From Saccharicrinis sp. (GTDB lineage Bacteria; Bacteroidota; Bacteroidia; Bacteroidales; Marinilabiliaceae), in contig JAGXIP010000010.1 of the NCBI GenBank assembly GCA_024635585.1, forward strand, positions 1 through 49,030: a stretch of 49,030 nt of DNA. The letters run 5' to 3'. The translations under genes were made by a program, and so were the position numbers. Of the stretch, positions 12,477 through 35,849 are shown piece after piece. Under the pieces are notes generated by a model, which worked only from the letters and a program-made list of their open reading frames with translations, was not told where the DNA came from and ran no database searches. Position 1 is the stretch's first letter. Every line of letters starts with the position of its first letter.

Positions 12477-15400
12477 ATGAAAAAAAATTTCCTATTGTTT
12501 TTAGTCGTCTTTATGGCTATACAGTTTAATGCTCTTGCCGAGCGCATTAATATTCCGGGGCTGAATATTCCTGGGCTAATTATTTCGGAGGTAAGGCCCG
12601 ATAATGAAACTACTGCCTATGTGGAATTAACTAACGTGGGTGATTCAGCTATTGATCTTTCATCTTTCGTTTTGTATTCGGTATTCTACAATACTAGAAT
12701 TAACGAAGTGTCGGATAGTATTATTAATCTTAGAATGACTAATCCTGAGAATAGTAATACTGTTGGTAAAGTATATTTAAAAGGAATGCTTCAGCCAGGT
12801 GAATCGTATGTTGTATCCTCAGTGTGGGATGCCAATGATGCCAGAGGTTCTGGTAATCCAAGGCATAATACGGCTCTAGCTGAGATAGGCAATCAGTTTG
12901 TTTACAAAGCGGAGCCTACCAATACAAATGGCTGGATAAATAAACCAGAATGGCAATGTTTTGGAAAAGACTCTGTGGGCGATCCACATTGGTGGGGAAC
13001 AGAATTAGAGCTGTTATATGCACAGTCCTCAGCAGGTTATCTTCTTAAATGGTTCTTTGAAACAGATTTGGGTACGGTTGACTCTACGTTTATCGATAAT
13101 TTTAACTTTTTTTACGAACCAAATTCTGTAGGTTCCAAAGGGACTGAGATTCGTTCTATTGCTGGTATAGAAGATGCCATGACTACCAGTGTTATGGTGC
13201 GTAAAGCTGCTGTAAAAAAAGGTAATTTAAAATGGGATCAATCTCGCGGAACGGATGCGCTTACTTCGGAATGGTTGGTAATACCAAAAAATAATTCCAG
13301 GCACGATGCTTTTACTTCGGTAGGAGTACATGGTGATTATGATCTTGATTATACCGTAAAAGATCCTGCAACTATTATTCTTAATGAACAAGCAAAAACC
13401 ATTTCAGTGCCTTGGCAATTGACACGTGGCGATTCTCTTTCGCACTACTTTAACTTAGGCAAAGGGATGAGTTGGGATTATAACCTGAATGCTTCATTCG
13501 AGGATACGGCATCTTTTATTGCTCGTCCAGGTGATATGTTTACTTTTTATGCTGTTGGAAATCAGTTACAGAAAGTCGATTATACATTGCAAGTTCGTGA
13601 GCCGGAACCAGATGTCGCATTGGTTTTCCCCAAGCGTCGCCTTGTACTCACAGAGAATCTTGTTCTGAATGAAGTAACTGGTTTAATGGATACGGTTATC
13701 ACCAGATCCTGGTCAAATTTTGTTTATGGTGTGGTTGAAGGTGAACAGATAGACACTATTTATAATGTGCCTTTTGCAACACGTACCGATAGTTTATTAA
13801 AGTATTTGGATAAACCAGCAAAAGCTAACTTGGAATTTGTATTTGTTGATGGTTTGAATCGTATTGACGTGATGCACGGCGATAAGCTGAAAGTAACTTC
13901 CGAAAATGGGACAGAAAAAGAATATTTTGTGTCTGTTTTGGATTACATTCCAAGTAATAATGCTCTTTTAAGTACGGTTACCTGGCCCGATATTGATAAG
14001 GATTTGTACCCAAGATGGAACATGGGCGATACACTTACAGATTTCACGCCATTGAAAACTGAATATATTATTCAGTTACGCAGCGATGCCAAGCAAATTC
14101 CTGCTTTCCAGTTTAAACCGCAAAATTTCAAATCTCGTATTGAAGTGAAAAATGCGGAAGATATTGATGGTACTTTGGCACAACGCACAACGTCGGTTAC
14201 TGTATATGCCGAAAGTGATACTACTATGCTAACGTATAATTTCCAATTCGTAAAGCAAGGTCCTGTGCAACCAAATGAGGCGGAGCCATTTTTCTCAGAA
14301 TTTATGAAGAAAGGCCACACGCAAGGATATGCTGTGGAGGTTTATAACCCTGGTACGGTTGAGTTGGATTTGAGCAGGTATTGCTTTTTAAGAGGTGCTG
14401 CTGGTCAAACTTGGCAAGAAGCCGTTGAAACTGTTGTTGCTGGCGATACACCAGGTACGTTTGGTACACCTGAACTTAAAATTTACCAAACGCACTATTT
14501 CCCTTCTAAACGATGGATAGCAGATGGTTCTATCGCTGATTGGAATGCTATCCCCAATGAAGAAAATCCTTATGTAGGTAAAGGTTTCTTAAGAGACGAC
14601 AACCAAACGGATCCCTATGTAAAAGGTGGTGATGTGTGGATTGCAGGTGTTGCTACCAGAGCCCCGGGAACAAGCTCTTATCAAGATAAAATTAAATTAG
14701 AATCAGACTTTCTTTTTAAAGGAAGTACCGCTGATAATACGTATTATGCTTGGGACTCAACAGCTATCTATCAACAATCTAATGTGGCCTGGACATATAA
14801 CTATGTATATTTATTAAAGTGTATTAACGATTCTATATTAGAAGGTACCAAGGATGTGAGAGATGCTAGTGCTTATGAGCTTATTGATCGTTTTGAGGCG
14901 ATAGGCGACTCTGTTGCAGGTGTAAAACTTACTGGTACCATGGCCTTGGTTCGCAAGCCACATATAACTAATGGTACGCTTGAGCGTATTGGTGGAGGTA
15001 GCGAAACGGCAGAAAGTTCGGAATGGATTATTGATACAAGTAACCCAACGGACAACTTAGGTATCCACGTCATGGATCCTATTACCAACTATGCATCAAC
15101 GGTTACATCTGTTAAGTTTGTTGTTACGCCCGGTTACAGAGGCGACAATCTCTCAATTACTGGTAATATAGCCGATTATACGCCTACAACCATTGCTTTA
15201 CTATTGGACAAAGCGGAGGCTAGTGCAACATTTGTATTTATGCGTGGTGCCACGGAATTGACTGCTAACCAGAGTTTAGCTGAGGGCGATATGTTGGAGG
15301 TGACTTCAGGTAACGGTAAATCAACAACAATGTATAAGTTAATCAATGCACCATTGGATGGTAATACTTCTTTAACTGCAAAGGCTGGTTCTGGATTAAC

Positions 15401-16157
15401 TGTTGTAGGTGATAAGGTAACCGGTGTAACTTTCGGTATGACATTGAAGGAAGCGATGATGAATCTGGAAGTGGCAAATACATCTATTCTTAATGTGCTT
15501 GATGCTAATACGGGTGCTTTACAGCCTCTGGTAGTTCATAATTTGGATACAGTGGTGATGGATGTAATGGTTAGTAAAAATGTAAAACTACAAGTGGTTG
15601 CCGAAAATTACGATAAGGCCATTTATACTTTCGATTTTAGTTTGGCCAGTGATCAAGCGGTTTTAGGATCTAATATCTTAAAAATTGATCAGGCTAAGAG
15701 GCAGCTTTTGGAGCTTCCAATTGGCTCTACACCTACTAGTTTCTTGTCGATGGTTTTTGCAAACGAAGGTGCAACGATACGAATCCTGGATAGGGCTGGT
15801 TTCGAACGTACCAATGGTTTAATGAATGTTGATGATGAGATTGAAGTAACGGCTCCTGATGGTATAGCTAAATCCATCTATGGTATAGCCGTAGCAGGGC
15901 ATTATACCACTATTAAAGGTGGTGCTGAATCTGCAACTAAAGTGGTGTTATATCCTATGCCAGTCACTTATGTTCTAAACATTCAAGGTTTTGACTTAGC
16001 ATCGATTCAGGTATTTACACTTTCTGGTACCATGATTATTTCTCAAACTTCATCAAGCAATAGTGTAGATGTAAGTGGTTTACCTAAAGGAGTGTATATC
16101 ATTAAAATGAAGGATGTAAACGGTGTAGTTGCCGTGGATAAATTCCTTAAGAAGTAA
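12477..16157 (+). CDS. Large T9SS-exported lamin-tail-domain-like surface protein, paralog 1
   Basis: 1,226-residue exported protein of unknown function. A signal peptide (MKKNFLLFLVVFMAIQFNAL) is followed by a lamin-tail-like segment (about 33-150: 'LIISEVRPDNETTAYVELTN', 'LQPGESYVVSS'). A second similar segment lies near residue 605 ('FFSEFMKKGHTQGYAVEVYN', 'LDLSRYCFLRG'), with repeated beta-rich units between and after. The last 71 residues (from 'VVLYPMPVTYVL' to the Lys-Lys end) form a type A T9SS sorting domain, so it should reach the cell surface. It closely resembles the next gene from end to end. Lamin-tail domains in bacteria occur in secreted nucleases and adhesive surface proteins; no catalytic motif is visible here. 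Position directly before the FAS1/SusC/SusD array suggests a surface binding or scaffold role (inference). Confidence 0.8.
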   Translation: MKKNFLLFLVVFMAIQFNALAERINIPGLNIPGLIISEVRPDNETTAYVELTNVGDSAIDLSSFVLYSVFYNTRINEVSDSIINLRMTNPENSNTVGKVYLKGMLQPGESYVVSSVWDANDARGSGNPRHNTALAEIGNQFVYKAEPTNTNGWINKPEWQCFGKDSVGDPHWWGTELELLYAQSSAGYLLKWFFETDLGTVDSTFIDNFNFFYEPNSVGSKGTEIRSIAGIEDAMTTSVMVRKAAVKKGNLKWDQSRGTDALTSEWLVIPKNNSRHDAFTSVGVHGDYDLDYTVKDPATIILNEQAKTISVPWQLTRGDSLSHYFNLGKGMSWDYNLNASFEDTASFIARPGDMFTFYAVGNQLQKVDYTLQVREPEPDVALVFPKRRLVLTENLVLNEVTGLMDTVITRSWSNFVYGVVEGEQIDTIYNVPFATRTDSLLKYLDKPAKANLEFVFVDGLNRIDVMHGDKLKVTSENGTEKEYFVSVLDYIPSNNALLSTVTWPDIDKDLYPRWNMGDTLTDFTPLKTEYIIQLRSDAKQIPAFQFKPQNFKSRIEVKNAEDIDGTLAQRTTSVTVYAESDTTMLTYNFQFVKQGPVQPNEAEPFFSEFMKKGHTQGYAVEVYNPGTVELDLSRYCFLRGAAGQTWQEAVETVVAGDTPGTFGTPELKIYQTHYFPSKRWIADGSIADWNAIPNEENPYVGKGFLRDDNQTDPYVKGGDVWIAGVATRAPGTSSYQDKIKLESDFLFKGSTADNTYYAWDSTAIYQQSNVAWTYNYVYLLKCINDSILEGTKDVRDASAYELIDRFEAIGDSVAGVKLTGTMALVRKPHITNGTLERIGGGSETAESSEWIIDTSNPTDNLGIHVMDPITNYASTVTSVKFVVTPGYRGDNLSITGNIADYTPTTIALLLDKAEASATFVFMRGATELTANQSLAEGDMLEVTSGNGKSTTMYKLINAPLDGNTSLTAKAGSGLTVVGDKVTGVTFGMTLKEAMMNLEVANTSILNVLDANTGALQPLVVHNLDTVVMDVMVSKNVKLQVVAENYDKAIYTFDFSLASDQAVLGSNILKIDQAKRQLLELPIGSTPTSFLSMVFANEGATIRILDRAGFERTNGLMNVDDEIEVTAPDGIAKSIYGIAVAGHYTTIKGGAESATKVVLYPMPVTYVLNIQGFDLASIQVFTLSGTMIISQTSSSNSVDVSGLPKGVYIIKMKDVNGVVAVDKFLKK

Positions 16158-16191
16158 ACCTTTCATGCAAAACATGAAGTGCTAATAATTT

Positions 16192-16226: not shown

Positions 16227-16298
16227 TTAATAAATGTAAAAGAAAATTGAAGTATGTTGATGCTGAGAGGTAAAATACTGTCACTCATGTCGTGTTGT

Positions 16299-16557: not shown

Positions 16558-19500
16558 ATGAAAAAAGGTTTTCTATTGTTTCTAGTCGTCTTTATGGCGA
16601 TACAGTTTAACGTGCTTGCCGATAATCCGGTTCGCATTAATATCCCGGGTTTAAACCTTCCGAAGTTACTTATTACGGAGGTACGACCTGATGGCGAAAC
16701 TACGGCTTATGTTGAGTTGACTAATATAGGTGATACCCCCATTGATTTGGCAACATCCGAGAATGAATATTTTGTATTGGAATCTGTGTTCTACAATACC
16801 AGACTTGTTGCAGTATCAGATAGTGTTATTGAGTTCAACCGAGCCAACAGTATTCTAGAAGAGCAGGTTGGTAAAGTATATTTAAAAGGTATAATTCAGC
16901 CGGGTGAATCTTTTGTTGTGGCTTCTGTTTGGGATACTGATGACGCAAGAGGTTCTGGTATTCCAAGACACAATACTGCGATAGCGCAAATAGGCAATCA
17001 ATTTGTATACAAAGACGAGAGTACATTTACCAATGGTTGGATTAATAAACCGGAATGGCAAACTTTTGGAAAAGACTCCGTGTATTCAGGTGAGCCTACA
17101 ATTGAGCTTTTGCGTGCAGAGTCCTCAGCTGGTTACTTGATTCGCTGGTTTTATCAAGCGGAGGATCTAACTTTTACATCTACGTATATCGATCAATTCA
17201 ACTTTTTTCACCATCCAGAGGTAAATGGCTCGGAGAAAGGGAGAGAAATTTTCTCTATTGCTGGTGTGGAAGATGCCATGACTACAAGTGTTATGGTGCG
17301 TAAAGCCATTGTAAATAAAGGTAATTTAAATTGGGATCAATCTCGTGGTACCGATGCTACAACTTCAGAATGGTTGGTGATACCAAAAAATAGTTCCAGG
17401 CGTGATGCTTTTACCACCGTAGGAGTACATGGTGTTTATAACCTTGATTATACGCTTAACGATCCTGCAACTATTACTGTTGATGAAGGTGCAAAAACCA
17501 TATCAGTTCCTTGGGAGTTGACGCGTGGTGATTCTCTTTCTCATTATTTCGATTTAGGCAAAGGGATGAGTTGGGCGTATAAACTTAATGGTGTTTCCGC
17601 AGATACGGCATCATATATTGCTCGCGATGACGATATGTTTTCTTTCTATGCTGTAGGTAACGTATTAGATCGAGTTGATTACACCTTGGAAGTTCGTGAA
17701 CCAGAAGCAGATGTAGCAATGGTTTTTCCAAAACGTCGTCTTAACTTCGGCGAGGAAATTGTTACCGACGAAATAACAGGTTTAGTTGATACCGTTGCTA
17801 CAAGATCTTGGTCTGGTTTCCTTTTTCCTGTGGTAGAAGGTCCTGTGATTGATACTATTATTAACGTACCTTTTGCAACACGTACCGATAGCTTATTGCT
17901 ATATTTGGATAAACCAGCAAAAGCTACATTCGATATTGTATTTGTTGATGGTAAAAATCGTATTGACCTTATGCTTGGCGATATACTTAAAGTAACTTCT
18001 GAAAATAGAGCTACCGTAAAAGAATATTTTATTAAGGTTAATGAGCACGAAGTAGGTCAAAATGCCCTTTTAAGCTCAGTAACATGGCCTGATATTGACA
18101 AGATGTTATACCCACGATGGAACGTTGGTGATACACTTCCGGAATTTGACCCTTTAAAAACAGAATATTTTGTAGAGTTGCGCTCTGATGCCAAAAAAAT
18201 TCCTGCTTTCCAGTTTAAAACGCAAGATTTAAAAGCAAGAACTGAAGTAAAATCGGCAGTTAGTATTAATGGTAACTTGGAACAACGTACAACTTCTGTT
18301 AAAGTATATGCCGAGAGTGATACAACTACTTTGACGTATAACTTCCGATTTGTAAAGCAAAGAGCTCCCGTGCAACCAAATAATGCCGAGCCATTTATTT
18401 CAGAATTATTGAAGAATATAAATACGCAAGGATATGCCGTGGAAATTTACAACCCCGGTACGGAAGAGCTGGACTTGAGCCAATATATGTACGTACGAGG
18501 TAACTCTGGTCAAACTTGGCAACAAGCTGTTGCAACGCTTATAGCCACAAACAATGCAGGTGCATATGCAAGTGGAAATCAACTTAAAATATACAAAACA
18601 CACTATTCTCCTTCTAAGCGATGGGCAGCAGATGGTTCGTTAGAAGCATGGTCAGCTACCCCTACCGAAGAAAATCCATTTATCGGTCAAGGTTTCTTAA
18701 AGGACGATAACCAAACTGACCCATGGGTTGACGGGCAAGATGTTTGGATTGCAGGTATAGGTATGGGTACAGGCGATACGCACGTGAAAATACGACAGGA
18801 ATCAGATTTTCTTTTTAGAGGGAATGAGGCCGAAGGTAACATGTATGCTTGGGATTCAACCTTGATTCTTCACCGCGAAACACCTGTTTGGACATACAAT
18901 AATACCTTCTTGTTAAAAATTCTTAACGATTCAATTATTTATGGAACAAAGGTAGTGACGGATCCTGCTGACTATGAGCTTATTGATCGTTTTGATGCAA
19001 TTGGAGACTCTGTTGGAGGCGAAAATTTGAGTGGTAATCTCTCTATAGTTCGTAAACCATCGGTTAGTAAAGGTAATGTTGATCCTTTTGGTGGTGGTAC
19101 TGAAACTGCTGAAAGTTCTGAATGGATTGTAAGAAAAGGTCATTTAGTTGACAACCTGGGAATTCACGTGATGGATCCTATTACTAACTTCGTGTCTACT
19201 GTGACCTCTTTGAAGTTAATTGTTACGCCTGGTTATAGAGGCGCGGATCTTACGATTACCGGTAACATTGCTGATTATACGCCTACAACCATTGCTTTGG
19301 TATTGGATAAAGGAGATATGAGTCAAACATTTGAATTTAAACGTGGTGAGGTGGTTTTAACTGCTGAGCAAAGTTTAATTGATGGCGATGTGTTAACAGT
19401 GACTTCTGGTGACGGTAGAGCTCAAACAATGTACACCTTGGTGAATCAACCTTTAAATAGCAGTACTTCATTAACTGCAAAAGCTGGTTCTGGTTTAACA

Positions 19501-20253
19501 GTTAGTGGTACTAAAGTTGGTGGAGTAACTTTTGGCATGACCCTTACACATGTGGTTGCAAATCTGGAAGTTGCCAATACATCTATTCTGAACGTGCTGG
19601 ATGCTTCAGGTGCTTTACAGCCTTTGGTAATGCATGACTTAGAAGGAATGATTAAGAGTGTAATGGTAAGTAAAAATGTAAAACTCCAAGTGGTTGCCGA
19701 AAATGGCGATATGGCTATTTATAGCTTCGATTTTGGGTTTGACAGTAGCATAGCTATTTTAGGCTCTAATATCCTAGAAATTAATCAGGATAAGAGGCAG
19801 GTTATGGAGCTTCCTATAAATTCTACAGTTCCTAGTTTCTTGTCGATGGTTTTTGCAAACGAAGGTGCAACGGTAAGGGTTCTTGATAGAGCTGGATTTG
19901 AACGTACTGTTGGTTTCATGAACGTTGATGATCAGATAGAAGTTACGGCTGCTGATGGAGTAGCTAAAGCCATCTACGGTTTGTCCGAAGAAGGGTATTA
20001 TAACTCTGTTAAGGGTAGTGTTGAATCTGCTATTAAAGTAGTGTTATATCCTATGCCGGTTACTAATGTTCTAAATATTCAAGGACTAGAGTTAGCTGCT
20101 GTTCAGGTATATTCACTTTCAGGTAGTATGATTATTTCTCAAACTTCATCTAGCAATACTGTAGATGTAAGTGGCCTACCTAAAGGTGTATATATTATTA
20201 AAATGAAGGATGTAAACGGTAAAGTTGCCGTGGAAAAATTCCTTAAGAAATAA
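16558..20253 (+). CDS. Large T9SS-exported lamin-tail-domain-like surface protein, paralog 2
   Basis: 1,231-residue paralog of the preceding gene, collinear over its whole length with nearly identical signal peptide, lamin-tail-like segment and T9SS sorting domain ('VVLYPMPVTNVLNIQG' to the Lys-Lys end). Differences concentrate in the middle. For example, the region just after the second lamin-tail-like segment is 'YMYVRGNSGQTWQQAV' here versus 'YCFLRGAAGQTWQEAV', and the segment after 'TAESSEWI' diverges. A short insertion near residue 65 ('LATSENEYFVLE') distinguishes the N-terminal region. It has its own leader and terminator. A surface-exposed structural or binding role is inferred; no enzyme motif is visible. 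Tandem copies that keep their ends but vary internally suggest different ligands or heterodimer partners. Confidence 0.8.
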   Translation: MKKGFLLFLVVFMAIQFNVLADNPVRINIPGLNLPKLLITEVRPDGETTAYVELTNIGDTPIDLATSENEYFVLESVFYNTRLVAVSDSVIEFNRANSILEEQVGKVYLKGIIQPGESFVVASVWDTDDARGSGIPRHNTAIAQIGNQFVYKDESTFTNGWINKPEWQTFGKDSVYSGEPTIELLRAESSAGYLIRWFYQAEDLTFTSTYIDQFNFFHHPEVNGSEKGREIFSIAGVEDAMTTSVMVRKAIVNKGNLNWDQSRGTDATTSEWLVIPKNSSRRDAFTTVGVHGVYNLDYTLNDPATITVDEGAKTISVPWELTRGDSLSHYFDLGKGMSWAYKLNGVSADTASYIARDDDMFSFYAVGNVLDRVDYTLEVREPEADVAMVFPKRRLNFGEEIVTDEITGLVDTVATRSWSGFLFPVVEGPVIDTIINVPFATRTDSLLLYLDKPAKATFDIVFVDGKNRIDLMLGDILKVTSENRATVKEYFIKVNEHEVGQNALLSSVTWPDIDKMLYPRWNVGDTLPEFDPLKTEYFVELRSDAKKIPAFQFKTQDLKARTEVKSAVSINGNLEQRTTSVKVYAESDTTTLTYNFRFVKQRAPVQPNNAEPFISELLKNINTQGYAVEIYNPGTEELDLSQYMYVRGNSGQTWQQAVATLIATNNAGAYASGNQLKIYKTHYSPSKRWAADGSLEAWSATPTEENPFIGQGFLKDDNQTDPWVDGQDVWIAGIGMGTGDTHVKIRQESDFLFRGNEAEGNMYAWDSTLILHRETPVWTYNNTFLLKILNDSIIYGTKVVTDPADYELIDRFDAIGDSVGGENLSGNLSIVRKPSVSKGNVDPFGGGTETAESSEWIVRKGHLVDNLGIHVMDPITNFVSTVTSLKLIVTPGYRGADLTITGNIADYTPTTIALVLDKGDMSQTFEFKRGEVVLTAEQSLIDGDVLTVTSGDGRAQTMYTLVNQPLNSSTSLTAKAGSGLTVSGTKVGGVTFGMTLTHVVANLEVANTSILNVLDASGALQPLVMHDLEGMIKSVMVSKNVKLQVVAENGDMAIYSFDFGFDSSIAILGSNILEINQDKRQVMELPINSTVPSFLSMVFANEGATVRVLDRAGFERTVGFMNVDDQIEVTAADGVAKAIYGLSEEGYYNSVKGSVESAIKVVLYPMPVTNVLNIQGLELAAVQVYSLSGSMIISQTSSSNTVDVSGLPKGVYIIKMKDVNGKVAVEKFLKK

Positions 20254-20329: not shown

Positions 20330-20389
20330 AACCGGTTATTTTGCCGCAAAATGTATAAGCTTACTGATATTATCTCGAAAATTTTTTTT

Positions 20390-25907: not shown

Positions 25908-27410
25908 ATGAAACGAAAAATATCACGAAGCATACCCTTCAAAATAGCGATATTAATAACGATTTTTTTGATACCGTTAACATCGTGTGAGGATTTTTTA
26001 AATCAGAAGCCCACAGACGGTTTAGTATATGATGAGTATTGGAAAAATAAAGAAGAAGTTCTATCCACTTTAGGTGGGGCATATCAACGTTTTGCCGATT
26101 TAGATTACATCCTTTTTGTACATGGCGAAGTACGTGGCGATATGTTGCAGGCGAATGGTACCAAAACACCTGGTTCTGAAAGGGCAATAATGTCTTCCAA
26201 TATTCAGTCAAATCAGTATTTCGCAAAATGGGAGAAATTTTACGAGATGATTAATATTTGTAATTCTGTGATTGCTTTAGCCCCTGGCGTGCAAGCCAAG
26301 GACGCTACCTTTACCGATTACCTTTTGCAGCAGTATGTGTCCGAAGCTACCTTTTTACGTAGTCTTGGTTATTTTTACCTGGTACGTATATTTAAAGATG
26401 TGCCTTACATAACGGAACCAACTGTAACGGATGAAGGTGAGTTTTTTCCAAAGCTAACTTCAGGTGATGAAATTATGGCAAGTATTACAGCTGATCTTAT
26501 TGCTATTAGAAATAAAATGCCCGATCATCCAACAAATGAAATGTCTAAGTCGCGTGCCACAGCAGGTGCTGTGAATGCTTTACTGGCTGATATTTCCTTA
26601 TGGAATTTTGAGTATGAAAAGTGTATTGAGTACATAGAAGCTGTTGAAAACAGTGGGCAATACTTCTTATTGCCTTCTACGGAGTGGTTTCAAAATTTTA
26701 ATCCTGGATTTTCTCTAGAGAATATTTTTGAGATTTATTTTGACCAGCCAATCGGACAAGAAAATTCTATTGCGGGTAATACCTATATATCTGATTTTAG
26801 AGAAAGAAAACTATTGGCGAGTGATTACGCCGAAGAGATATTAAGTGTTGTAACAACGGAAGCCGGCGAATTAATTAGAGGTAATGGTTCCATAGCTACT
26901 AATCATCAAGTTTTTAAATATGTTGGGTCAAGATCCGATAAAAGTTCAATTCGAGCTAGTAATGTATTGAGTAGTGCTAACTTTATAATTTATCGCTTGG
27001 CCGATCTTTACTTGATGAAAGCGGAGGCGTATTCACAATCTCAAACACCCGACTATGCAAAAGCGTTGCAGTATATTAATGAGATACGCCAACGATCAAA
27101 TATGCCACCCTACGCACAGCTAACAAACAGTGCTCAGGCATTTGAAGATGCAATTTTAGTGGAACGTGCAAAAGAATTGGCTTTTGAAGGTAAGCGCTGG
27201 TTCGACTTGTTACGTATGGGACGAAGAAATGACTATTCCAGGAAGAATAAGCTTATTGAAATACTAGTTCAGAATGTTACTTCTTCACAGCAGCTTGTAT
27301 TAAAATCACGTCTTAGCGATCCGAACGGCTGGTATATGCCAATTCATCAGGATGAAATTGAAAACAATAAGAACTTGACGCAAAACTCATATTACGATGA
27401 AAATAAATAG
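25908..27410 (+). CDS. SusD/RagB-type glycan-binding lipoprotein 1
   Basis: 500-residue surface lipoprotein that caps the SusC barrel and binds the glycan. Signal with Cys27 in 'LTSC', followed by acidic residues (CEDFLNQ), consistent with Bacteroidota surface export of lipoproteins. The SusD pattern is complete: 'FLNQKPTDGL' at the start, 'EATFLRSLGYFYLVRIFKDVPY' in the helical repeat region, 'ELAFEGKRWFDLLRMGR' and the closing 'WYMPIHQDEIENNKNLTQN'. It overlaps the start of the next gene by 14 bp, indicating translational coupling with the FAS1 lipoprotein. Confidence 0.93.
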   Translation: MKRKISRSIPFKIAILITIFLIPLTSCEDFLNQKPTDGLVYDEYWKNKEEVLSTLGGAYQRFADLDYILFVHGEVRGDMLQANGTKTPGSERAIMSSNIQSNQYFAKWEKFYEMINICNSVIALAPGVQAKDATFTDYLLQQYVSEATFLRSLGYFYLVRIFKDVPYITEPTVTDEGEFFPKLTSGDEIMASITADLIAIRNKMPDHPTNEMSKSRATAGAVNALLADISLWNFEYEKCIEYIEAVENSGQYFLLPSTEWFQNFNPGFSLENIFEIYFDQPIGQENSIAGNTYISDFRERKLLASDYAEEILSVVTTEAGELIRGNGSIATNHQVFKYVGSRSDKSSIRASNVLSSANFIIYRLADLYLMKAEAYSQSQTPDYAKALQYINEIRQRSNMPPYAQLTNSAQAFEDAILVERAKELAFEGKRWFDLLRMGRRNDYSRKNKLIEILVQNVTSSQQLVLKSRLSDPNGWYMPIHQDEIENNKNLTQNSYYDENK

Positions 27411-29004
27411 AAATTATAGCAAAATAAAAGTACTACATATATTACTGGTGCTGTTTATAGGCTTCTCGTCTTGTGAAGATGAATTAAAAAAGGATGTCCT
27501 TTTTGTAGGCGATAGTTATGAAAACATCATGCACTATATTGATGCCAATCCTAACTATGCTTCGTTTTCTAAAATCGTGAAATCCGCTAAGATGACGGAT
27601 GTTTTAAGTGCCTATAACAATAACGGGGGTGACGGTTATACCCTGTTTTTACCTACAAATGAAGCTGTAACTAAGTATATCGACGAATCAGATAGATATA
27701 CTACGCTGGATGAATTATTACAGGATGCTGTGTATGCTGCAGAAATTGTTAAATACCACATCGTCAATGGACGTATTCCTTCTAACGAATTTCCCAATGG
27801 TGCTTTAGCTAAAAGAACAATTTCAAATTACTTTTTAACCATTGTTTTTAGAGAAGAAAATGACGCTATTTCGTATGCTGTTAACGATGAATCCAAAATA
27901 TTGATATCAGATATAAAAAAGGATAATGGTACAATTCATACCATTGATAAAATGCTGACTCCGGTTGTTTTTACATCGTATCAATGGGTACAACAAAAAA
28001 GTAATTTTACTATTTATACCGAATTATTGACTAAATGTGGTTTAGCGGATGGTTTAAACGCTTTTGAGTTGGATGAGTTAGGTCGTGAAGTTTATAATGA
28101 ATACACTTTGTTCGCCGAATCCGATGAGCTCTATGCAGCCAATGGAATCATGTCGTTTAACGATCTGGTTAATTCTATTGTTACTGATGGTTCTACAAAT
28201 CAAGATTTTACCAATCCAACGAATTTAGTGAATAGATATGCACGCTATCATATTTTAGAAAAAAGCGTTTTTCTGGATGAATTTGCTACTGGTGTTTATA
28301 ATACCTATGGCGAGTCACCCGTATCTTTAGACTTAGATTCTATTTTAAAAATTAATAAGGGCACTAAGATCTTTGATGTTATTATAAGTAAAGGGGACAC
28401 AATAAACATTGATTATTTACAGGTTGATTTAGATCAAAGTAATATTGTTACCCGTAGTGGTGCAATTCATCAATTAGATCATATTTTGCGTCCTTTTGTA
28501 CCCAGTAGAAAAAAGGTTGAGTATGAATTTTATGAAGAACCAGTAATCAATGCTTTACGGGATATTGAAAGTTCTTTTTATATTCTGGATGAATACTTTA
28601 AATATATCAGTTTTATAGGAACAAATTATTTGATCTATACAAAGTCGGCAGATGATATAGACAATTGTAACAATAATGATTACATACGAGTTGCGGGCGA
28701 TGTAGATTTTAGTTTTAAAACAACAAAGATTCTGGCTGGAAGGTATAGATTAAGGTTGGTGTTGGAGCGTGGGTATACCTACCTTGCAAGTGTGCAAGCC
28801 TATGTTGATGATACCAAAGTGGGTGTTGTTATTGATGCGACCAAAGCGGTTGGTAGACAAGGCGTTGGGTTTAATAACATTGCTGGTACTAGTGGTGTTG
28901 TAGGCACAGTTGAATTCACGAGTTTTACTACGCATACGGTTAAACTGAGTACGGTTATTCCAGGTCTAATGATAATTGACCGTATCATCTTTGAACCAAT
29001 TTAA
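27397..29004 (+). CDS. FAS1-domain lipoprotein B with C-terminal beta-sandwich
   Basis: 535 residues; lipoprotein signal with Cys26 in 'FSSC' and an acidic +2/+3 (CEDEL) suggesting surface exposure. Two fasciclin units are visible: about 40-190 ('YASFSKIVKSAKMTDVL', 'GYTLFLPTNEAVTKYI', 'IVKYHIVNG') and about 200-375 ('NFTIYTELLTKCGL', 'YTLFAESDELYAANG', 'YARYHILE'). The last ~160 residues form a different beta-rich domain ending 'MIIDRIIFEPI', a terminal signature like carbohydrate-binding beta-sandwiches. The start overlaps the SusD stop by 14 bp, so it is made with SusD and is probably part of the same outer-membrane complex, in the position where SusE/SusF-like binding proteins usually lie. 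Confidence 0.85.
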   Translation: MKINRNYSKIKVLHILLVLFIGFSSCEDELKKDVLFVGDSYENIMHYIDANPNYASFSKIVKSAKMTDVLSAYNNNGGDGYTLFLPTNEAVTKYIDESDRYTTLDELLQDAVYAAEIVKYHIVNGRIPSNEFPNGALAKRTISNYFLTIVFREENDAISYAVNDESKILISDIKKDNGTIHTIDKMLTPVVFTSYQWVQQKSNFTIYTELLTKCGLADGLNAFELDELGREVYNEYTLFAESDELYAANGIMSFNDLVNSIVTDGSTNQDFTNPTNLVNRYARYHILEKSVFLDEFATGVYNTYGESPVSLDLDSILKINKGTKIFDVIISKGDTINIDYLQVDLDQSNIVTRSGAIHQLDHILRPFVPSRKKVEYEFYEEPVINALRDIESSFYILDEYFKYISFIGTNYLIYTKSADDIDNCNNNDYIRVAGDVDFSFKTTKILAGRYRLRLVLERGYTYLASVQAYVDDTKVGVVIDATKAVGRQGVGFNNIAGTSGVVGTVEFTSFTTHTVKLSTVIPGLMIIDRIIFEPI

Positions 29005-29034
29005 TATTTGTAACCAATTTAATACTACAAAAAA

Positions 29035-30609
29035 ATGCGTTATATAATTAATAAAATATCCATATTACTATTGTTGTCAAGCATATTTGTAGCTTGCCAA
29101 GAAGAGATTGATGATTATTTTTATAAGGAAACAGAAACTACGGTGGATTCTGATATTATGTCTTTGCTAAAGCAGAATGCAGATTATTCTCGGTTTGTTG
29201 AACTTTTAGAAGCGTATCAGATTGATACTTTACTTCGTAAGGGTAATATTTTTACCTTCTTTGTGCCTAATAATAGCGCAATGGATAACATTAAGCAAGG
29301 GGTACTAGAAGATAAAGATTTAGTAGAATATCTTATTACTGAGTCCTACGTGAATCTGAATCAAATAAGTTCTCATGCCCTGATACAGACGAAAGGTGGG
29401 AAATTTGGCCTAATTAAAGCTGCAGGTGGTTCTAGTTATACGTTTGATGATGTTGAAATAGTAAAAGGTAGTCCACTAGCCAATAACGGTCGTTACTATG
29501 AAATTGCGGAAGTGGTGCAGCCTAAACCCAGTTTGTACGAGTATATTGCTGCAACCAATCCATTTTATCGTAATTATTTAGATTCTCAAGATTCAATATA
29601 CCTTGATAAAGAGTTAAGTACACCCATTGGGTACACGGAAGCAGGTTCAACTGTGTATGATACCGTTTTAACAACTGTCAATTTGTTCGAAGAAGCTTAC
29701 TTTCCTATATCTCAAGAGTTCAGAGACCGTAAAGCAACCATGCTGTTATTTACGCAAGAGCAATATGATAGAGCTTTAGATATTGTATCTGAAAACATGA
29801 GTATTCCGGTAGAGAACATACCCTCATTGTGGCAAAACGATATATTGATGCCCTATTTAATAACACAAAGTGTATTTTCAAACGCACTTCCTTATACTGC
29901 TTTTGCTAAAGGACGCGCTAAAAACATTCTTGGTGATAGTGTATATGTTACTCCCCAAAATATTTCACCTGAATATTTTGAGAGTAGTAATGGACGAACT
30001 TATAAATTTATTGATTTTCAGGTGCCTGAACAACTTTATAAAGTGAATGACACAATACCCATGGTGTCATTGTTGTTCAGTAAAGGTTCCGGTCTTTGGG
30101 GATGGAAGGAGGACGTAGTAGTAACAGGACAAAAATTTAATCCAGTTCCACTTGGTAATAAATTTTCAAAGTTTGACGATAACTTGCTTATTGATATGGG
30201 AAATAATTTTAGAGGTGAATTTTCCTTAGCATATAAACATAAAAATGTATTTCCGGCAAAGTATAGACTTACGATACGATTTAATGCCACCAGTGTAACC
30301 GGAGTGTTTAATATTTATGTAAATGGCAAGCTATATCCGGTTGATATTGATGATGGATACGGACCTCGGGAGGATTTTGATTTTTATGACGTAAAAGAGC
30401 GTGGCGTTATCAGTTCTGTTACGAATGTTTATTATCCTTATGATATCAAATTCGGCGGTTTTTGTAGTTTTGAGATTTTAGTTGACAATATTACCGAATA
30501 TGGCGATGTGGAAGTAAAATTGGAATATGTAGAGCCTAGCCGAAAGAATAGAAGTAAATGCGGTTTAAGTTTAGACTATATTGCTCTACAATATTATGAA
30601 AATAATTAA
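29035..30609 (+). CDS. FAS1-domain lipoprotein C with C-terminal beta-sandwich
   Basis: 524 residues; lipoprotein signal with Cys21 in 'FVAC' followed by QEE, compatible with surface export. A clear FAS1 unit occupies about 40-165 ('YSRFVELLEAYQIDTLL', 'IFTFFVPNNSAMDNI'), and a second, diverged one about 170-340 ('KATMLLFTQEQYDRAL'). The C-terminal ~160 residues form a beta-sandwich with 'YRLTIRFNATSVTGVFNIYV' and the end 'LDYIALQYYENN', comparable to the end of lipoprotein B. It sits between B (31 bp) and the second SusC (39 bp). Likely a glycan-binding or complex-assembling partner of the second importer (inference). Confidence 0.82.
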   Translation: MRYIINKISILLLLSSIFVACQEEIDDYFYKETETTVDSDIMSLLKQNADYSRFVELLEAYQIDTLLRKGNIFTFFVPNNSAMDNIKQGVLEDKDLVEYLITESYVNLNQISSHALIQTKGGKFGLIKAAGGSSYTFDDVEIVKGSPLANNGRYYEIAEVVQPKPSLYEYIAATNPFYRNYLDSQDSIYLDKELSTPIGYTEAGSTVYDTVLTTVNLFEEAYFPISQEFRDRKATMLLFTQEQYDRALDIVSENMSIPVENIPSLWQNDILMPYLITQSVFSNALPYTAFAKGRAKNILGDSVYVTPQNISPEYFESSNGRTYKFIDFQVPEQLYKVNDTIPMVSLLFSKGSGLWGWKEDVVVTGQKFNPVPLGNKFSKFDDNLLIDMGNNFRGEFSLAYKHKNVFPAKYRLTIRFNATSVTGVFNIYVNGKLYPVDIDDGYGPREDFDFYDVKERGVISSVTNVYYPYDIKFGGFCSFEILVDNITEYGDVEVKLEYVEPSRKNRSKCGLSLDYIALQYYENN

Positions 30610-30647: not shown

Positions 30648-33600
30648 ATGAACAGAATTGCAACCATTTTATCTGTAATAATTCTTAATTTATTTTTGAC
30701 TGTGCCTATTTTGGCACAGAGTTCAAAAATGCTTTCAGGTATTGTCTTGAATGATGCCAAACAGCCGGTGAGTCAGGTGACACTTAATATTCCCGGTTCT
30801 GAACCTGTATTTACCGGCGAGGATGGTGTGTTCACTATTCCACGTGTAAGTGAAACGGAATGGCTTTTTGTGACCCCTTTGGAAGGTTATAGCCCTAAAA
30901 AGATACTATTAATGGACCAGGAGCATGTTAAAATATACCTAACAAGCTCCGATATTGAGTCTCTTTATTCAGAGGCGCTTACTCCTTTGGATAACAAGGA
31001 AAGACGAGATGTAATTTCATCTTTTAAAGCCTTAGATCCTTACGGATTTGAAAATCAACCGTATACTTCTACCGAGCAGTATTTACAAGGCGCTGTTTCG
31101 GGTGCGTTTGTTACCCAAACATCAGGTATGCCTGGTGCTGGTGCATCTGTATATATCCGGGGATACTCATCGCTATTGTCTAATAATCAACCATTGTATA
31201 TTGTTGATGGTATGCCTCTGGAAAGTGGTAATATTTATAATAATTTAATCGAAGGTTATAACTTTAGTCCAATTTCCAGTATTGATCCTTTAGATATTTC
31301 GCAAATTTCTGTATTAAAAGATGCGGCTGCAACTGCATTATATGGAGCTAAAGCGGCTAACGGGGTTGTAATTATTAAAACCTTGGATCCTAAAGAAACA
31401 AAAACTACGATTGACTTTTTGTATAGAACGGGTATTTCAATGGAACCAACGCAGCTAGCACAGCTCAATACCAAAGCGTATAAGACCTTGGCTAACGAAG
31501 TGCTTTTTTCAAGTAAGTTTGCGGAGGAGCAATACAAAGAGAGTTATCCTGGTTTATTTGCAACACCAGGCGATAATGATTATATAACTTACAATCACAA
31601 CACGAACTGGCAGGATGAAGTATTTAATAATGGTATGATGAACAATGTCCGCTTTTCGATTAAAGGGGGTGATGCGATTGCTAAGTATGGTTTGTCTGTG
31701 GGGTATTTGCAAAATAATGGGATAGTTAAAAATACGTCATATGATCGTTTAAACATTCGACTTGTGGGTACATTTGATATTTTCGAGTGGTTAAAAATGG
31801 ATGTGTCAACAAACTTAACCACGGCAACCTCAATGCTTAAAGAGTCTGCTTTATCCTCTGTGACAAATCCATTGCTGTCGTCCTTGTGGAAAAGCCCGAT
31901 GCTTAATCCTTACGAATATGATAGTGATGGAAATTTATTGAGAACAATAGATGAAGTTGACGAATTGGGAACATCAAATCCAACCGCGGTTATTAAACTA
32001 TCGGATGCTCAAGCTAAAAACTATAAATTTATTACCACGGTAAATTTAAATGGCGATATCAGTAAATCCGTAAAATTTAGCTCTATTATTGGTTTAAATT
32101 CAAACAACTCTAAAGAATACTTGACCATCCCCGATAGAGGATTTGACCTTTTGTATGAAGATGAAGTCAATCGCGAATCAAAAGGTCAAAATAATTCCTT
32201 ATACACTGTCTATAACGATAACCGTATTTTCTATACCAAAACCTTTAATAAAGTTCATTCTTTATATGCAGCACTGGGCTTAAGGTGGCAGCAAAATAAA
32301 TATGATCAGGATTTTGGTGTAGCCAGAAATTCGGCAAGTGATTTTTATACCAATCTGGATCGTGGTAATTCTTTGTTAAACCAAATTGGAGGAATTAATA
32401 GAGCTTGGAATTGGGGCGCATTATATTCAAATGTGTCTTATTCCTATGCCGATAAATATCTGCTTTCTGCTACTGTATCTTCTGATGTATCATCACGTAT
32501 TGGCGAAAATGCTGCAAATACAGTTAAAATAGGCAATATGCCGGTTGGTATTTTTTACTCCGTGGCAGGGGCTTGGCGTATTTCTAGCGAAAAATTCTTT
32601 TCTGGTATTAAAGGTATTGAAGAACTAAAACTTCGTGCTTCGTATGGTATAACTGGAAATGATGATATTGGCGAAGTGAATAGTTATTCTCACTTCGTGG
32701 TTAGTCAATACCGCGAAACGGCAGTTTTAGTACCTGGTGGTTTAGCCAATGATGAATTAACTTTTCAAACTAAAAAACAGGTGAATCTAGGGCTGGATTT
32801 TAGTGCTTTAGCCAATCGTTTTAATTTTACGGTCAATTATTTTGACAATAAAAGTGAAAATGTTGTTATGCTCGAGCTTCAAAATAGTTTCCTAGGTTAC
32901 GATACCTATCCCAATAATACAGCGTCTTTCTCTACAAAAGGGTTTGAAGCAGAGGTTTTTGGTCGTGTGATAAGTCGTCCTAATTTTTCTCTCGACCTGG
33001 GATTAAATTTCTCTAAATATAATACGGTTACCGACCATGTTACTTCGGGACAGGTAATATTTGATGCGCCCGGACAGATGCAGATTATTAACCGTGATGG
33101 AGCACCTATTAACAGTTTTTATGGTTACCGTTTCAAAGGTGTATATGCCAGCTCGCAAGAAGCAAATGACGCCAATATGTACAACTATAGAGGATTTAAA
33201 TACCAAGCAGGGGATGCTATCTATGAAAATGTGGCTGATGCTGATGGAAATATGGATAACCGTATCGATAAAAATGACAAGCAGCTATTGGGTTCGTTTG
33301 AACCTGATTTCTATGGCGGCTTCTTCTTGAATACGCGATATAAAAATCTCAGCCTCGATATGTTTTTCCAAGGTGTTTACGGTAATGAAGTGTATAATTA
33401 CATGAGACAACAAAATGAAAGCATGAGCGGACTGGAAAACCAGAGTGTAAAAACCTTACAGCGCTGGCAGTATGAGGGGCAGCAAACATCTGTGCCAAAA
33501 GCAACTTGGGATGATCCAATGGGAAATGCAGTTTTCTCTGACAGATGGATTGAAGATGGTTCTTATTTACGCCTGAAAAATTTAACCTTAGCGTATGATA

Positions 33601-33791
33601 TTAAGAAAAAGGTTATTGGGCTTTCTTCCATAAAAGTATTTGCAACGGCATCCAATCTGTTTACTTTAACTAAATATTTAGGATACGACCCTGAGTTTAG
33701 TTATTCGCAGGATTTAATGATACAAGGAGTGGATTATGGTAATATGTCGGTAAGCAAGCAATTTATGCTGGGTGTGAAGATTGGCCTATAG
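30648..33791 (+). CDS. SusC/RagA-type TonB-dependent outer-membrane transporter 2
   Basis: 1,047 residues. Signal peptide ends 'PILAQ' (residue 24); a regulatory-like beta domain spans about 28-100. The plug has the signatures 'GAGASVYIRGYSS' (163-175), 'PLYIVDGMPLESG' (182-194) and 'ISVLKDAAATALYGAKAANG' (220-239). It is clearly SusC-type but distant from the first copy. I see no usual TonB box (such as DEVVVT) between the regulatory domain and plug, and the protein ends 'MLGVKIGL' rather than in an aromatic residue, both less typical. It is paired with the SusD gene 156 bp downstream, a gap occupied by a dispersed repeat. Confidence 0.92.
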   Translation: MNRIATILSVIILNLFLTVPILAQSSKMLSGIVLNDAKQPVSQVTLNIPGSEPVFTGEDGVFTIPRVSETEWLFVTPLEGYSPKKILLMDQEHVKIYLTSSDIESLYSEALTPLDNKERRDVISSFKALDPYGFENQPYTSTEQYLQGAVSGAFVTQTSGMPGAGASVYIRGYSSLLSNNQPLYIVDGMPLESGNIYNNLIEGYNFSPISSIDPLDISQISVLKDAAATALYGAKAANGVVIIKTLDPKETKTTIDFLYRTGISMEPTQLAQLNTKAYKTLANEVLFSSKFAEEQYKESYPGLFATPGDNDYITYNHNTNWQDEVFNNGMMNNVRFSIKGGDAIAKYGLSVGYLQNNGIVKNTSYDRLNIRLVGTFDIFEWLKMDVSTNLTTATSMLKESALSSVTNPLLSSLWKSPMLNPYEYDSDGNLLRTIDEVDELGTSNPTAVIKLSDAQAKNYKFITTVNLNGDISKSVKFSSIIGLNSNNSKEYLTIPDRGFDLLYEDEVNRESKGQNNSLYTVYNDNRIFYTKTFNKVHSLYAALGLRWQQNKYDQDFGVARNSASDFYTNLDRGNSLLNQIGGINRAWNWGALYSNVSYSYADKYLLSATVSSDVSSRIGENAANTVKIGNMPVGIFYSVAGAWRISSEKFFSGIKGIEELKLRASYGITGNDDIGEVNSYSHFVVSQYRETAVLVPGGLANDELTFQTKKQVNLGLDFSALANRFNFTVNYFDNKSENVVMLELQNSFLGYDTYPNNTASFSTKGFEAEVFGRVISRPNFSLDLGLNFSKYNTVTDHVTSGQVIFDAPGQMQIINRDGAPINSFYGYRFKGVYASSQEANDANMYNYRGFKYQAGDAIYENVADADGNMDNRIDKNDKQLLGSFEPDFYGGFFLNTRYKNLSLDMFFQGVYGNEVYNYMRQQNESMSGLENQSVKTLQRWQYEGQQTSVPKATWDDPMGNAVFSDRWIEDGSYLRLKNLTLAYDIKKKVIGLSSIKVFATASNLFTLTKYLGYDPEFSYSQDLMIQGVDYGNMSVSKQFMLGVKIGL

Positions 33792-33837
33792 ACCTTGATT
33801 AATTTTATAAGTTTGTATAATTACAATATTTTGTAGC

Positions 33838-33932
33838 ATGAAACGAGCCATGAGAGTTACCTCTCACACAACCTGTCCCGCCTTAGCGGGAGGGAATGAC
33901 TAATGTGGCGAGTTCCATGTGGCAATTGAAAA
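33838..33932 (+). repeat. ATGAAACGAGC dispersed repeat, copy B
   Basis: Lies between the second SusC and SusD genes. It contains ATGAAACGAGCC, a TGAGAG/CTCTCA hairpin, a TCCCGC/GCGGGA hairpin, the block TGGCGAGTTCCATGTGG and the end GGCAATTGAAA, 15 bp before the SusD start codon. It therefore forms most of the SusD2 leader. Confidence 0.75.
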
Positions 33933-33947
33933 ACAAAATTTAGACAC

Positions 33948-35849
33948 ATGAAAAGGATAATAATATATGTTCTATTATTACTTGTTGTAACAACAGCATG
34001 TAATGATTTTTTAAACCCTGACCAAGGTTTAGTAGTACCAGAAAGTCAGGTGCCAAAGGATGAAGTTGAATTGCGTTCTATTAGTTTAGGATTGTATAGC
34101 TTACAGCAAGATTTGGTAGAGCAGATTGTAATGTTAGGCGAATTGCGTGGCGATCTTTTAACGGTTACAAATAATGCCGACCCGGATTTAAGAGAGATTA
34201 ATTCTTTTCAAATAACAGAAAACAATAGGTATGCTAGCCCTTCAAATTTTTATAAGCTAATAGCCTCTTGTAATAAAGTGATAAGGATATTTGAAAAGAT
34301 GCATCCTGAGGTGCTGGATAAGAATAGCCCGATATCTAACTATCATCGCATGTATGGTGAGGCGATTGCTATGCGTTCATGGGCGTATTTTTATGCTGTT
34401 AGAATATATAATGAAATTCCTTACATTCCGGAAACGCTGAACTCTATTGAGGAGATCAATGCATATGTAAACTCACCCGGAGAATATACCGACAGTATTT
34501 ATATTGATTACGCACCTAATGGCATAGATACTAAAACTGTGTTTGATACTACTTTTGTCTACACCGACAAAAAGTTTTTGAATCAAGACTTAATGACACG
34601 TCGATGCATAAAGGATATCAAGGAAAAGATTAGGGTTGTAGGTGTTGACTACTCCAATAAAGATAATATTAATGATGTAACGTGGAATACAACAGTTTGG
34701 AATGAAGATGGCCTTAAAGCCTTATTGGTGCAAATGTATATGCACATTGATAACTACAATGATGCTTTAAGTATTTTAGAACCAACATTTTTAAGACGTA
34801 GTATGCAGGTGGGTGATGACTTTATAAAATACGCAGTGGATGATAGATATGCAGGAGGTAAATGGAAGAATATTTTTGAAGGAATTGAAAATAATGAACA
34901 TATATTCACACTTCAATTCCAAAAAACCCAATCCTCTTGGCAATTAAATAATCTTCAGCGTTATTTTTCTATCATACCCCCCAATGTTTACGCCTTAAAG
35001 CCAAGTGCCAAGTCTATACGTTTGTGGGAATCGCAATGGAAAAATTATATTATTCAAACAACTGTGCCAAAAAGTGATCCAATAGAGAATTTGCCTCTCA
35101 ATAAAGTATATACCTTAGATCCTGGAACACCAGGAGATTTTTCCAGAGGTTATGGCAAATCTTATATATATGTTAAAAATGGCCTTGCTGTAGATAGTGC
35201 TACCGTGGCGGAAGTGCTTAAGCTGAAGAGGCTTAGTTTTTGGGACGAAGTTAACGAATTGATGCGTGGTGTAGATACGGTAGTTTATAAATATACCATA
35301 GGAAAGAGTACTTTTGATAGAAATGCAAACTTTATAGTGTATCGTGCAGCGGCAATGCACTTGTATGCTGCCGAGATTATGGCTGATCGTCAATATACGG
35401 ATGGAGGTAGCTTTCGTCATGATATTGGTTTTGCCCAGTTTTATATTTATAATGGCGATTATATTGGAACAAACGATAATCGTAGGGGTGTTGCAGGTAG
35501 AGCAGGTTTTAGTGCATACGGAGGAAAAGCCGTAGATCAACCCCAGTACTTTACGTTTGATCCGAATACCAATGAAATTACTGGATATAAACCTTTTGCA
35601 TCATTATTGGATAAACAGCTTTATATGGAAGACATTATCATGGACGAACGTGCCAGGGAATTGGCTTTTGAGGGAGAGCGTTTTTACGATTATATCAGGA
35701 TTGCACGACGTCGCCAAAAAGCGGGTTTAAATGGTAATGAGTGGTTAGCGACTAAAATATCCGAATCATATCCTGCTGGTCAACGTGCCGATATTAAAGC
35801 GCGTTTGATGGTAGAAAGTAACTGGTACTTGCCATTTATTCTTAAATAA
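33948..35849 (+). CDS. SusD/RagB-type glycan-binding lipoprotein 2
   Basis: 633 residues, longer than the usual ~500-550 of the family. Lipoprotein signal with Cys18 in 'TTAC'. Family features: 'CNDFLNPDQGLVVPESQ' at the N-terminus, 'GEAIAMRSWAYFYAVRIYNEIPY', 'ELAFEGERFYDYIRIARRR' and the closing 'ESNWYLPFILK'. The extra length lies mainly in the middle (about 165-215 and 330-440, for example 'TKTVFDTTFVYTDKKFLNQD'), regions that in SusD proteins often shape the glycan site. The end lacks the common 'ENP.L.QN' tail found in copy 1. It is the partner of SusC 2 and the last gene of the array; a terminator follows. Confidence 0.9.
   Translation: MKRIIIYVLLLLVVTTACNDFLNPDQGLVVPESQVPKDEVELRSISLGLYSLQQDLVEQIVMLGELRGDLLTVTNNADPDLREINSFQITENNRYASPSNFYKLIASCNKVIRIFEKMHPEVLDKNSPISNYHRMYGEAIAMRSWAYFYAVRIYNEIPYIPETLNSIEEINAYVNSPGEYTDSIYIDYAPNGIDTKTVFDTTFVYTDKKFLNQDLMTRRCIKDIKEKIRVVGVDYSNKDNINDVTWNTTVWNEDGLKALLVQMYMHIDNYNDALSILEPTFLRRSMQVGDDFIKYAVDDRYAGGKWKNIFEGIENNEHIFTLQFQKTQSSWQLNNLQRYFSIIPPNVYALKPSAKSIRLWESQWKNYIIQTTVPKSDPIENLPLNKVYTLDPGTPGDFSRGYGKSYIYVKNGLAVDSATVAEVLKLKRLSFWDEVNELMRGVDTVVYKYTIGKSTFDRNANFIVYRAAAMHLYAAEIMADRQYTDGGSFRHDIGFAQFYIYNGDYIGTNDNRRGVAGRAGFSAYGGKAVDQPQYFTFDPNTNEITGYKPFASLLDKQLYMEDIIMDERARELAFEGERFYDYIRIARRRQKAGLNGNEWLATKISESYPAGQRADIKARLMVESNWYLPFILK

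Follow-up and report, generated by a model that had tools for sequence, protein, structure and literature searches.

A recurrent seven-gene array of two SusC/SusD pairs and three FAS1 lipoproteins in Bacteroidota, probably a module for outer-membrane glycan capture and import

We analysed a 49,030 nt-long stretch of forward-strand DNA from Saccharicrinis sp. (hereafter, the window), which belongs to a 4.85-Mb Bacteroidota genome made up of 310 contigs. The window carries seven consecutive genes, coding for three FAS1 lipoproteins and for two pairs of SusC transporter and SusD lid, in the order FASa-SusC1-SusD1-FASb-FASc-SusC2-SusD2. By gene calling and profile matching, this complete order was found in 49 of 79 FASb-like loci of named Bacteroidota genomes, and the seven genes are one conserved module. 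We consider it quite likely that they work as a single dual-channel outer-membrane module for the capture and import of glycans.

The seven-gene array and its recurrence

The initial annotation of this DNA had proposed the array together with two preceding genes, and all nine are open frames at the positions given here and below. Domains were called in the nine proteins from Pfam and NCBIfam matches above the curated cut-offs. The array lies entirely on the forward strand. It begins with FASa (20351..22627), a FAS1-repeat lipoprotein with two Fasciclin stretches over the cut-off, whose start is more likely at 20390 (the lipidation residue is Cys41 in the listed frame). SusC1 (22666..25860) is a TonB-dependent outer-membrane transporter matching the SusC/RagA model TIGR04056 with 656.6 bits against a cut-off of 368, and SusD1 (25908..27410) is a lid lipoprotein (SusD_RagB, 116.4 bits). 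There follow the two Fasciclin-matching lipoproteins FASb (27397..29004) and FASc (29035..30609), the second TonB-dependent transporter SusC2 (30648..33791; TIGR04056, 615.5 bits) and the second lid lipoprotein SusD2 (33948..35849), a divergent SusD with 35.4 bits against a SusD_RagB cut-off of 23.1. TIGR04056 and SusD_RagB are over cut-off in both pairs, so that a tandem SusC-SusD is found twice. The intergenic spacings from FASa to SusD2 are, in order, 38, 47, -14 (an overlap), 30, 38 and 156 bp; the 14-bp overlap and the 156-bp gap had been described correctly, while the lower bound of the 31-47 bp range given for the remaining gaps has to be corrected to the measured values of 30, 38, 38 and 47 bp. 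No protein among the nine matched the SusE/SusF models at E 0.01, in agreement with the initial annotation, and the FAS1 lipoproteins occupy the SusE/SusF place.

The 79 loci were the best of 445 confirmed places obtained when named genomes were searched with the FASb alignment, and two of them coincide with genomes of our other samples (L050 is G002, and L090 is G023). The nearest named relative found, a Saccharicrinis metagenome-assembled genome (MAG; L050, hence G002), has the same locus. In G002, G043, G004 and G023 the gene order is the same and each gene is nearest to its positional counterpart. Complete arrays occur in Bacteroides nordii, B. salyersiae, Flavobacterium, Pedobacter, Mucilaginibacter, Niastella, Sphingobacterium, Pontibacter, Jejuia, Mariniflexile and a Prevotella MAG; the 49 span the orders Bacteroidales, Flavobacteriales, Sphingobacteriales, Chitinophagales and Cytophagales. 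Median intergenic gaps in the arrays are 12-27 bp, and gaps > 250 bp were found in three of the 49 loci (one each between SusD2 and an extra SusC, within a split FASa, and between a short FASa and SusC1). Of the remaining 30 loci, 11 run into the end of a contig or of the locus and are consistent with the array as far as they can be read; one cut locus, L116, has an unrecognised 168-aa open reading frame (ORF) at the expected FASa end. A FAS1 gene has moved in 2 of the 79 loci (L066, L105). In Mariniflexile (L084, L085) FASb is tandemly duplicated inside the array. Because the order recurs in 49 of the 79 loci, we rejected chance or a local assembly oddity as its source.

The genome samples gave a similar picture of the order and a measure of its frequency. 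FASb was found in 23 of 158 Bacteroides-type genomes (E 1e-30), and all eight arrays taken from five of them (two each in G739, G719 and G810, one each in G874 and G824) have the seven families in order; of these eight, one, G810:C113, is the array already counted as L093 of B. nordii and has its FASa split, and another, G810:C114, has a split FASc. In G719:C38, positions 45000-77001, two seven-gene arrays are adjacent and divergently oriented, the outer SusD2 of one being cut by the stretch examined. The source genome itself has two further copies of the array, on contigs C50 and C72, cut by contig ends. Across a phylum sample, with at most three candidates scored per genome, 60 of 395 genomes gave a FASb match at E 1e-20 and eight, the source genome included, gave one of at least 430 bits; the module is thus uncommon across that sample. 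A conserved neighbourhood in other genomes, which the initial annotation had named in advance as the test of its proposal, is present, both in the 49 named loci and in the eight Bacteroides-type arrays.

The proteins of the array also descend together. A FastTree tree with 143 SusCs placed the 63 SusC1 rows of the arrays in one clade and the 57 SusC2 rows of the arrays in another, each with support 100 and both apart from 23 other SusCs of the source genome (23 of 25 controls; the two left out were fragments). Over 48 arrays, i.e. the window and 47 of the 49 complete loci (L063 and L072 were excluded), the seven proteins have correlated pairwise distances, with Spearman coefficients of 0.58-0.84, values to which the organism phylogeny, which was not removed, contributes. 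An average of 76% of the seven genes point to one and the same nearest array.

Other arrangements of FASb-like genes were seen among the named loci. In two Bacteroidales MAGs (L097, L102) there are three and five tandem FASb-like genes, respectively, of about 650-700 aa, with no SusC/SusD in the stretch examined. In L076, L078, L079 and L080 a short FASb-like gene (373-380 aa) faces a FASa-like gene on the opposite strand, again with no SusC/SusD in the stretch examined.

The gap between SusC2 and SusD2 (33792..33947) had been called repeat-filled, and this holds: it is a copy of a dispersed genomic repeat with at least 49 matches genome-wide, its own copy included, when 40 of 132 first-look candidates were scored. 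Tandem repeats were searched for inside the 156 bp, none was found, and they were ruled out as its content. Besides 33792-33947, copies in the window lie at 42948-43018 and 43107-43161. The corresponding gap in the relative G002 is of nearly equal size (157 bp).

Signals and predicted folds of the FAS1 lipoproteins

The three FAS1 proteins carry what appear, from their sequences, to be surface-type lipoprotein signals. The lipidation cysteine, counted on the alignments, is conserved in 54 of 56 FASa, 59 of 59 FASb and 57 of 58 FASc. Positions +2 to +7 after it are acid-rich and, at +3/+4, acidic residues amount to 30-61% against 12-13% in the background (2.5-5 times more), a comparison set that holds no periplasmic lipoproteins. 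According to an extract of PMC5080379, the export signal of Bacteroidetes surface lipoproteins is likewise acid-rich after the cysteine.

FASb and FASc were modelled with pLDDT 86.2 and 89.5 from alignments of 45 and 43 sequences, respectively, and both have the predicted architecture FAS1-FAS1-beta-sandwich, with the second FAS1 degenerate in FASc and the C-terminal domain at about residues 369-535 in FASb and 337-524 in FASc. The program hhalign relates the two along most of their sequence (99.9%), and a Fasciclin profile match is present in all 45 FASb members. Periostin and TGFBIp are the structures nearest to the FAS1 pair, with Z 18-21 (at most 21 in FASb and 19 in FASc). In sequence profiles, FASa carries FAS1 domains at its two ends, with weak traces in the stretch between.

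The best matches of the C-terminal domains were two xanthan-related structures. Against a domain of the PL8 xanthan lyase 6F2P, FASb gave Z 14.6 (132 residues, rmsd 2.4) and FASc Z 15.6 (140 residues, rmsd 2.4); against the xanthan-binding module MiXBM 7EHG, FASb gave Z 13.9 (127 residues, rmsd 2.1) and FASc Z 14.4 (133 residues, rmsd 2.3). Structures of the carbohydrate-binding module (CBM) families CBM35 and CBM6 came next, at Z 10-12. By sequence, the FASb profile matches MiXBM at E 6.6e-5, and the FASc profile gave no match to it at E 0.001. We take 7EHG to be the MiCBMx of PMC10049358, near CBM84. Pfam names the FASb C-terminal domain DUF5108 in 9 of 45 members and gives it no name in most. 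DUF5108, wherever it could be placed on the protein, coincides with this domain (residues 370-578 in the protein of G739, E 1.9e-46, and B. nordii likewise; eight proteins were examined, three with DUF5108).

Because lipoprotein signals are joined to a CBM-like C-terminal domain in two of the three FAS1 proteins, FASb and FASc look, in their models, like surface glycan-binding proteins (SGBPs) built on FAS1 rather than on Ig-like modules. The levan SGBP has, in the extract of PMC7618045, a plan of two Ig-like domains followed by a C-terminal glycan-binding domain. The initial annotation had suggested that the FAS1 lipoproteins are binding lids of the importer; a glycan-binding surface protein is now the best reading of the models, and they are probably not lids, a part that falls to SusD.

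Lamin-tail proteins, neighbouring enzymes and possible cargo

Two lamin-tail-domain (LTD) proteins with a type A sorting domain of the type IX secretion system (T9SS) precede the array on the same strand, as the initial annotation reported. LTD1 (12477..16157) and its tandem copy LTD2 (16558..20253; 68.5% identical) both have LTD and Por_Secre_tail matches over the cut-off, the C-terminal sorting domain TIGR04183 reaching 39.2 and 42.6 bits, respectively, against a cut-off of 23. The pair is a duplication, and G002 has a single lamin-tail gene.

In an order sample of 295 genomes, we found the lamin-tail family in 12 (E 1e-40) and FASb in 26 (E 1e-80), and all 12 lamin-tail genomes also have FASb (hypergeometric 1.3e-14, with relatedness not removed; 1.8e-12 when the profile-source genomes G000 and G043 are left out). 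More rows of the lamin-tail profile come from named loci, whose genomes may recur in the order sample. Eleven lamin-tail genes of eight genomes share a contig with FASb, 7.2-15.9 kb apart; those at G500:C9, a partial one at G671:C50 and those of the other four genomes are on other contigs. Lamin-tail genes occur upstream or downstream of the array and on either strand. The scan scored at most two candidates per genome and missed places such as C31 of the source genome. On this 8.3-kb contig (L129, 3304-7049) there is a third lamin-tail gene, in two overlapping frames, beside a hybrid two-component sensor/regulator (HTCS) gene and with no array. No full-length lamin-tail homologue was found in the array-bearing G004 and G023. 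Lamin-tail proteins were rejected as core parts, since these two genomes show no full-length homologue and the family is present in just 12 of the 26 FASb genomes. The proposed co-occurrence of array and lamin-tail genes is therefore real but limited to one Bacteroidales branch, and the idea that the pair is a component of the array did not survive; the surface scaffold that the initial annotation saw in these proteins is a putative role.

The array had been described as free of enzymes, which is true of its seven genes and not of its surroundings. Upstream of the lamin-tail genes there are members of the glycoside hydrolase (GH) families GH43, GH106 and GH3 and a CBM6/T9SS protein. Downstream of the array, 47 bp past SusD2, a terminator-like stem of 13 pairs (35897..35927, forward strand) may mark the end of the array transcript; the scan overall gave 14 stems against 13.4 expected, and this is the longest among those listed. 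A polysaccharide lyase (PL) of family PL8 begins 315 bp downstream of the array (36165..38428, forward strand) in two frames, 36165-37304 and 37373-38428. It is followed by an HTCS gene on the opposite strand (38614..42708; Reg_prop, HisKA, HATPase_c, Response_reg and HTH_18) and by GH5, GH39 and GH43. The PL8 region 36165-38428 has stops between its two frames, and in G002/L050 the gene is intact with 700 aa; the split is either a pseudogene or an assembly error. The closest solved structure to the intact protein of the relative is chondroitinase AC.

PL8 adjoins the array in the window and in G002, and a PL11 rhamnogalacturonan I (RG-I) lyase does so in B. nordii, B. salyersiae and G739. Further neighbours are GH28 (G874), GH88 (G739), a pectate lyase (G824), GH78, GH3, GH5 and GH115, and an HTCS gene lies upstream of the array in 11 of the 79 loci. 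Of 97 flanking ORFs with at least 300 residues and no match to the module families, 10 were scanned singly and 72 as a batch; in the batch there were 19 T9SS tails, 3 GH43 and 3 pectate-lyase-like proteins, among the 25 of 115 families listed. The neighbouring enzymes suggest uronic-acid polysaccharides, such as rhamnogalacturonan, and these are our best guess for a common cargo. Xanthan, to which the CBM match might point, was not adopted as the substrate, because the PL8 of the relative is nearest to chondroitinase AC and the relatives of FASb and FASc lie beside pectin enzymes.

Proposed mode of action, alternatives and known systems

From the computed gene order, conservation, correlated divergence, lipoprotein signals, predicted folds and enzyme neighbours, we infer surface exposure, glycan binding, a substrate and a physical complex as follows. 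The two SusC barrels with their SusD lids would import oligosaccharides, and FASa, FASb and FASc would be surface lipoproteins that act as SusE/SusF-type glycan-binding proteins do. The FAS1 pair of FASb and FASc would be stalk and interface, and their C-terminal beta-sandwich, of the CBM84/CBM35/CBM6 kind in the models (DUF5108 in FASb of Bacteroides relatives), would bind the polysaccharide. FASa, in which sequence profiles recognise FAS1 domains only, may serve the first SusCD pair as a bridging or docking component. The cargo would be a long and complex polysaccharide of plant or microbial origin containing uronic acid, i.e. rhamnogalacturonan in gut relatives and some acidic polymer in the window, and the lyases encoded beside the array would cut it at the cell surface. 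More tentatively, we also put forward a phylum-wide hetero-utilisome as a possibility: FASa, FASb and FASc would join two non-equivalent SusCDs, so that the FAS1-CBM arms feed one long acidic polysaccharide to two channels of different specificity, with the T9SS lamin-tail proteins as an extra capture part in the Bacteroidales branch.

Several observations weigh against the glycan capture and import reading. The 79 loci were selected with the FASb alignment and are biased towards arrays like that of the window. The three FAS1 proteins are not obligatory, because 4 of the 79 loci (L086, L087, L091, L106) have no FASc between FASb and SusC2, and in 12 of the 79 there are FASb-like genes without SusC/SusD within the stretch examined, several of these stretches ending near the gene. 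The acidity at +3/+4 was compared with background only. An unrelated beta-sandwich, a Cry toxin, reaches Z 10.1, the level of the CBM6 rows, so that only 6F2P and 7EHG stand out among the fold matches of the models. A CBM-like fold alone shows no function, and Pfam CBM_35_2 was matched on the C-terminal domain in just 1 of 45 FASb members (E 0.0068). Lyases are a minority of the flanking ORFs and GH115, GH3 and GH5 occur too, which makes a single common substrate class weak.

One alternative is that the FAS1 lipoproteins are adhesins for cell-surface or cell-matrix contact, made together with an ordinary importer for attachment to particles and having no direct part in import. FAS1 is in fact an adhesion fold, with periostin and TGFBIp as the closest structures (Z 18-21), and the 12 loci with FASb-like genes and no SusC/SusD in the stretch examined, the tandem arrays L097 and L102 included, would agree with such a role, as would the FAS1 gene that a Bacteroidota symbiont transcribes strongly and that an extract of PMC10199937 reads as adhesion. 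We consider this unlikely in view of the fixed positions of the FAS1 genes in a SusC/SusD operon phylum-wide, the correlated divergence, and the CBM-like C-terminal domains of FASb and FASc. It seems to us highly improbable that the module imports or displays something other than a glycan, either peptides, as RagAB, or as a surface assembly machine derived from SusC/SusD homologues. Homologues of SusC/SusD do have other roles, and the Bacteroidota beta-barrel assembly machine (BAM) complex includes SusC/SusD-type subunits. An extract of PMC12578637 describes that complex as distinct, one of PMC11817032 implicates RagAB in protein uptake, and RagA is among the PDB matches of both SusCs. Nevertheless, the setting among lyases, glycosidases and HTCS regulators and the CBM-like domains argue for glycans. 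So does the best solved match of both SusCs, 8AA4, which is named 'SusC homolog' and which we take to be a dextran transporter.

A further explanation, compatible with glycan capture and import, is that the array is the twin-SusCD part of the RG-I loci known in B. thetaiotaomicron (BT4145-BT4183), with its FAS1 proteins annotated as hypothetical or DUF5108; we regard it as somewhat probable. Among the iron-responsive genes of B. thetaiotaomicron tabulated in PMC10434189 are BT4164-69, which fall inside this locus and are entered as SusC/RagA, a DUF5108 protein, hypothetical proteins and a TonB-dependent receptor. An extract of PMC3243724 assigns BT4145-83 to RG-I and reports growth on it at 58.5% of the wild type after loss of the HTCS BT4178. 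Since DUF5108, which Pfam names in 9 of 45 FASb members, corresponds to the FASb C-terminal domain of B. nordii and of a Bacteroides-type relative, the B. thetaiotaomicron locus probably carries the module; the PL11 lyase next to the B. nordii, B. salyersiae and G739 arrays points the same way. On the other hand, the DUF5108 protein of B. thetaiotaomicron is known here from one annotation line, and RG-I would in any case be one cargo among several. If the locus is indeed the module, its use of RG-I was already known, and the novelty lies in the conservation of the unit, in its design of FAS1 joined to a CBM and in its spread over the phylum. In open-licence full text we found no description of the module, nor of any system in which FAS1 lipoproteins link two different SusCD pairs; the extract of PMC10199937 has a symbiont contig with two SusCD pairs and, elsewhere, the FAS1 gene mentioned above, and does not link the two. 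The word 'undescribed' in the initial annotation stands for this literature and is doubtful for the probable B. thetaiotaomicron counterpart.

To our knowledge, there is no general explanation for the two SusCD pairs that some polysaccharide utilisation loci (PULs) hold. In the array the two pairs form a fixed unit together with three surface proteins of their own, and this unit diverges together across the phylum, which makes it unlikely that one SusCD pair is a spare. A function is suggested for a class of fasciclin/DUF5108 proteins, with a predicted glycan-binding domain that sequence databases mostly miss, and a T9SS lamin-tail family would be tied to glycan capture in one branch.

Among known systems, the RG-I PUL BT4145-BT4183 is probably the same module, with a DUF5108 protein beside SusC genes and RG-I lyases beside the arrays of gut relatives, whereas the window has PL8, GH106, GH43 and GH39, and the genes scanned there include no RG-I lyase. 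In the models, the FASb and FASc C-terminal domains resemble CBM84/MiXBM and CBM35/CBM6 in fold. Unlike xanthan-binding modules, however, they are on FAS1 surface lipoproteins and not on secreted xanthanases, their binding is a prediction, and the window PL8 is nearer to chondroitinase AC than to xanthan lyase. The FAS1 pair has the fold of periostin, TGFBIp and fasciclin I; here, in contrast to these adhesion proteins, it occurs in bacterial lipoproteins of the outer membrane, joined to a CBM-like domain, whose genes stand among those of importers. With the Sus-like systems or utilisomes of B. thetaiotaomicron for levan and dextran, the array shares SusC/SusD pairs, adjacent lipoproteins made of a stalk and a terminal binding domain, and nearby HTCS and enzyme genes. 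It differs from them in having two different SusCD pairs in one operon-like unit, three FAS1 lipoproteins in place of Ig-like or SusE/SusF proteins, and no enzyme within the seven genes. We place the module with the SusCD glycan-uptake systems, as a variant of them.

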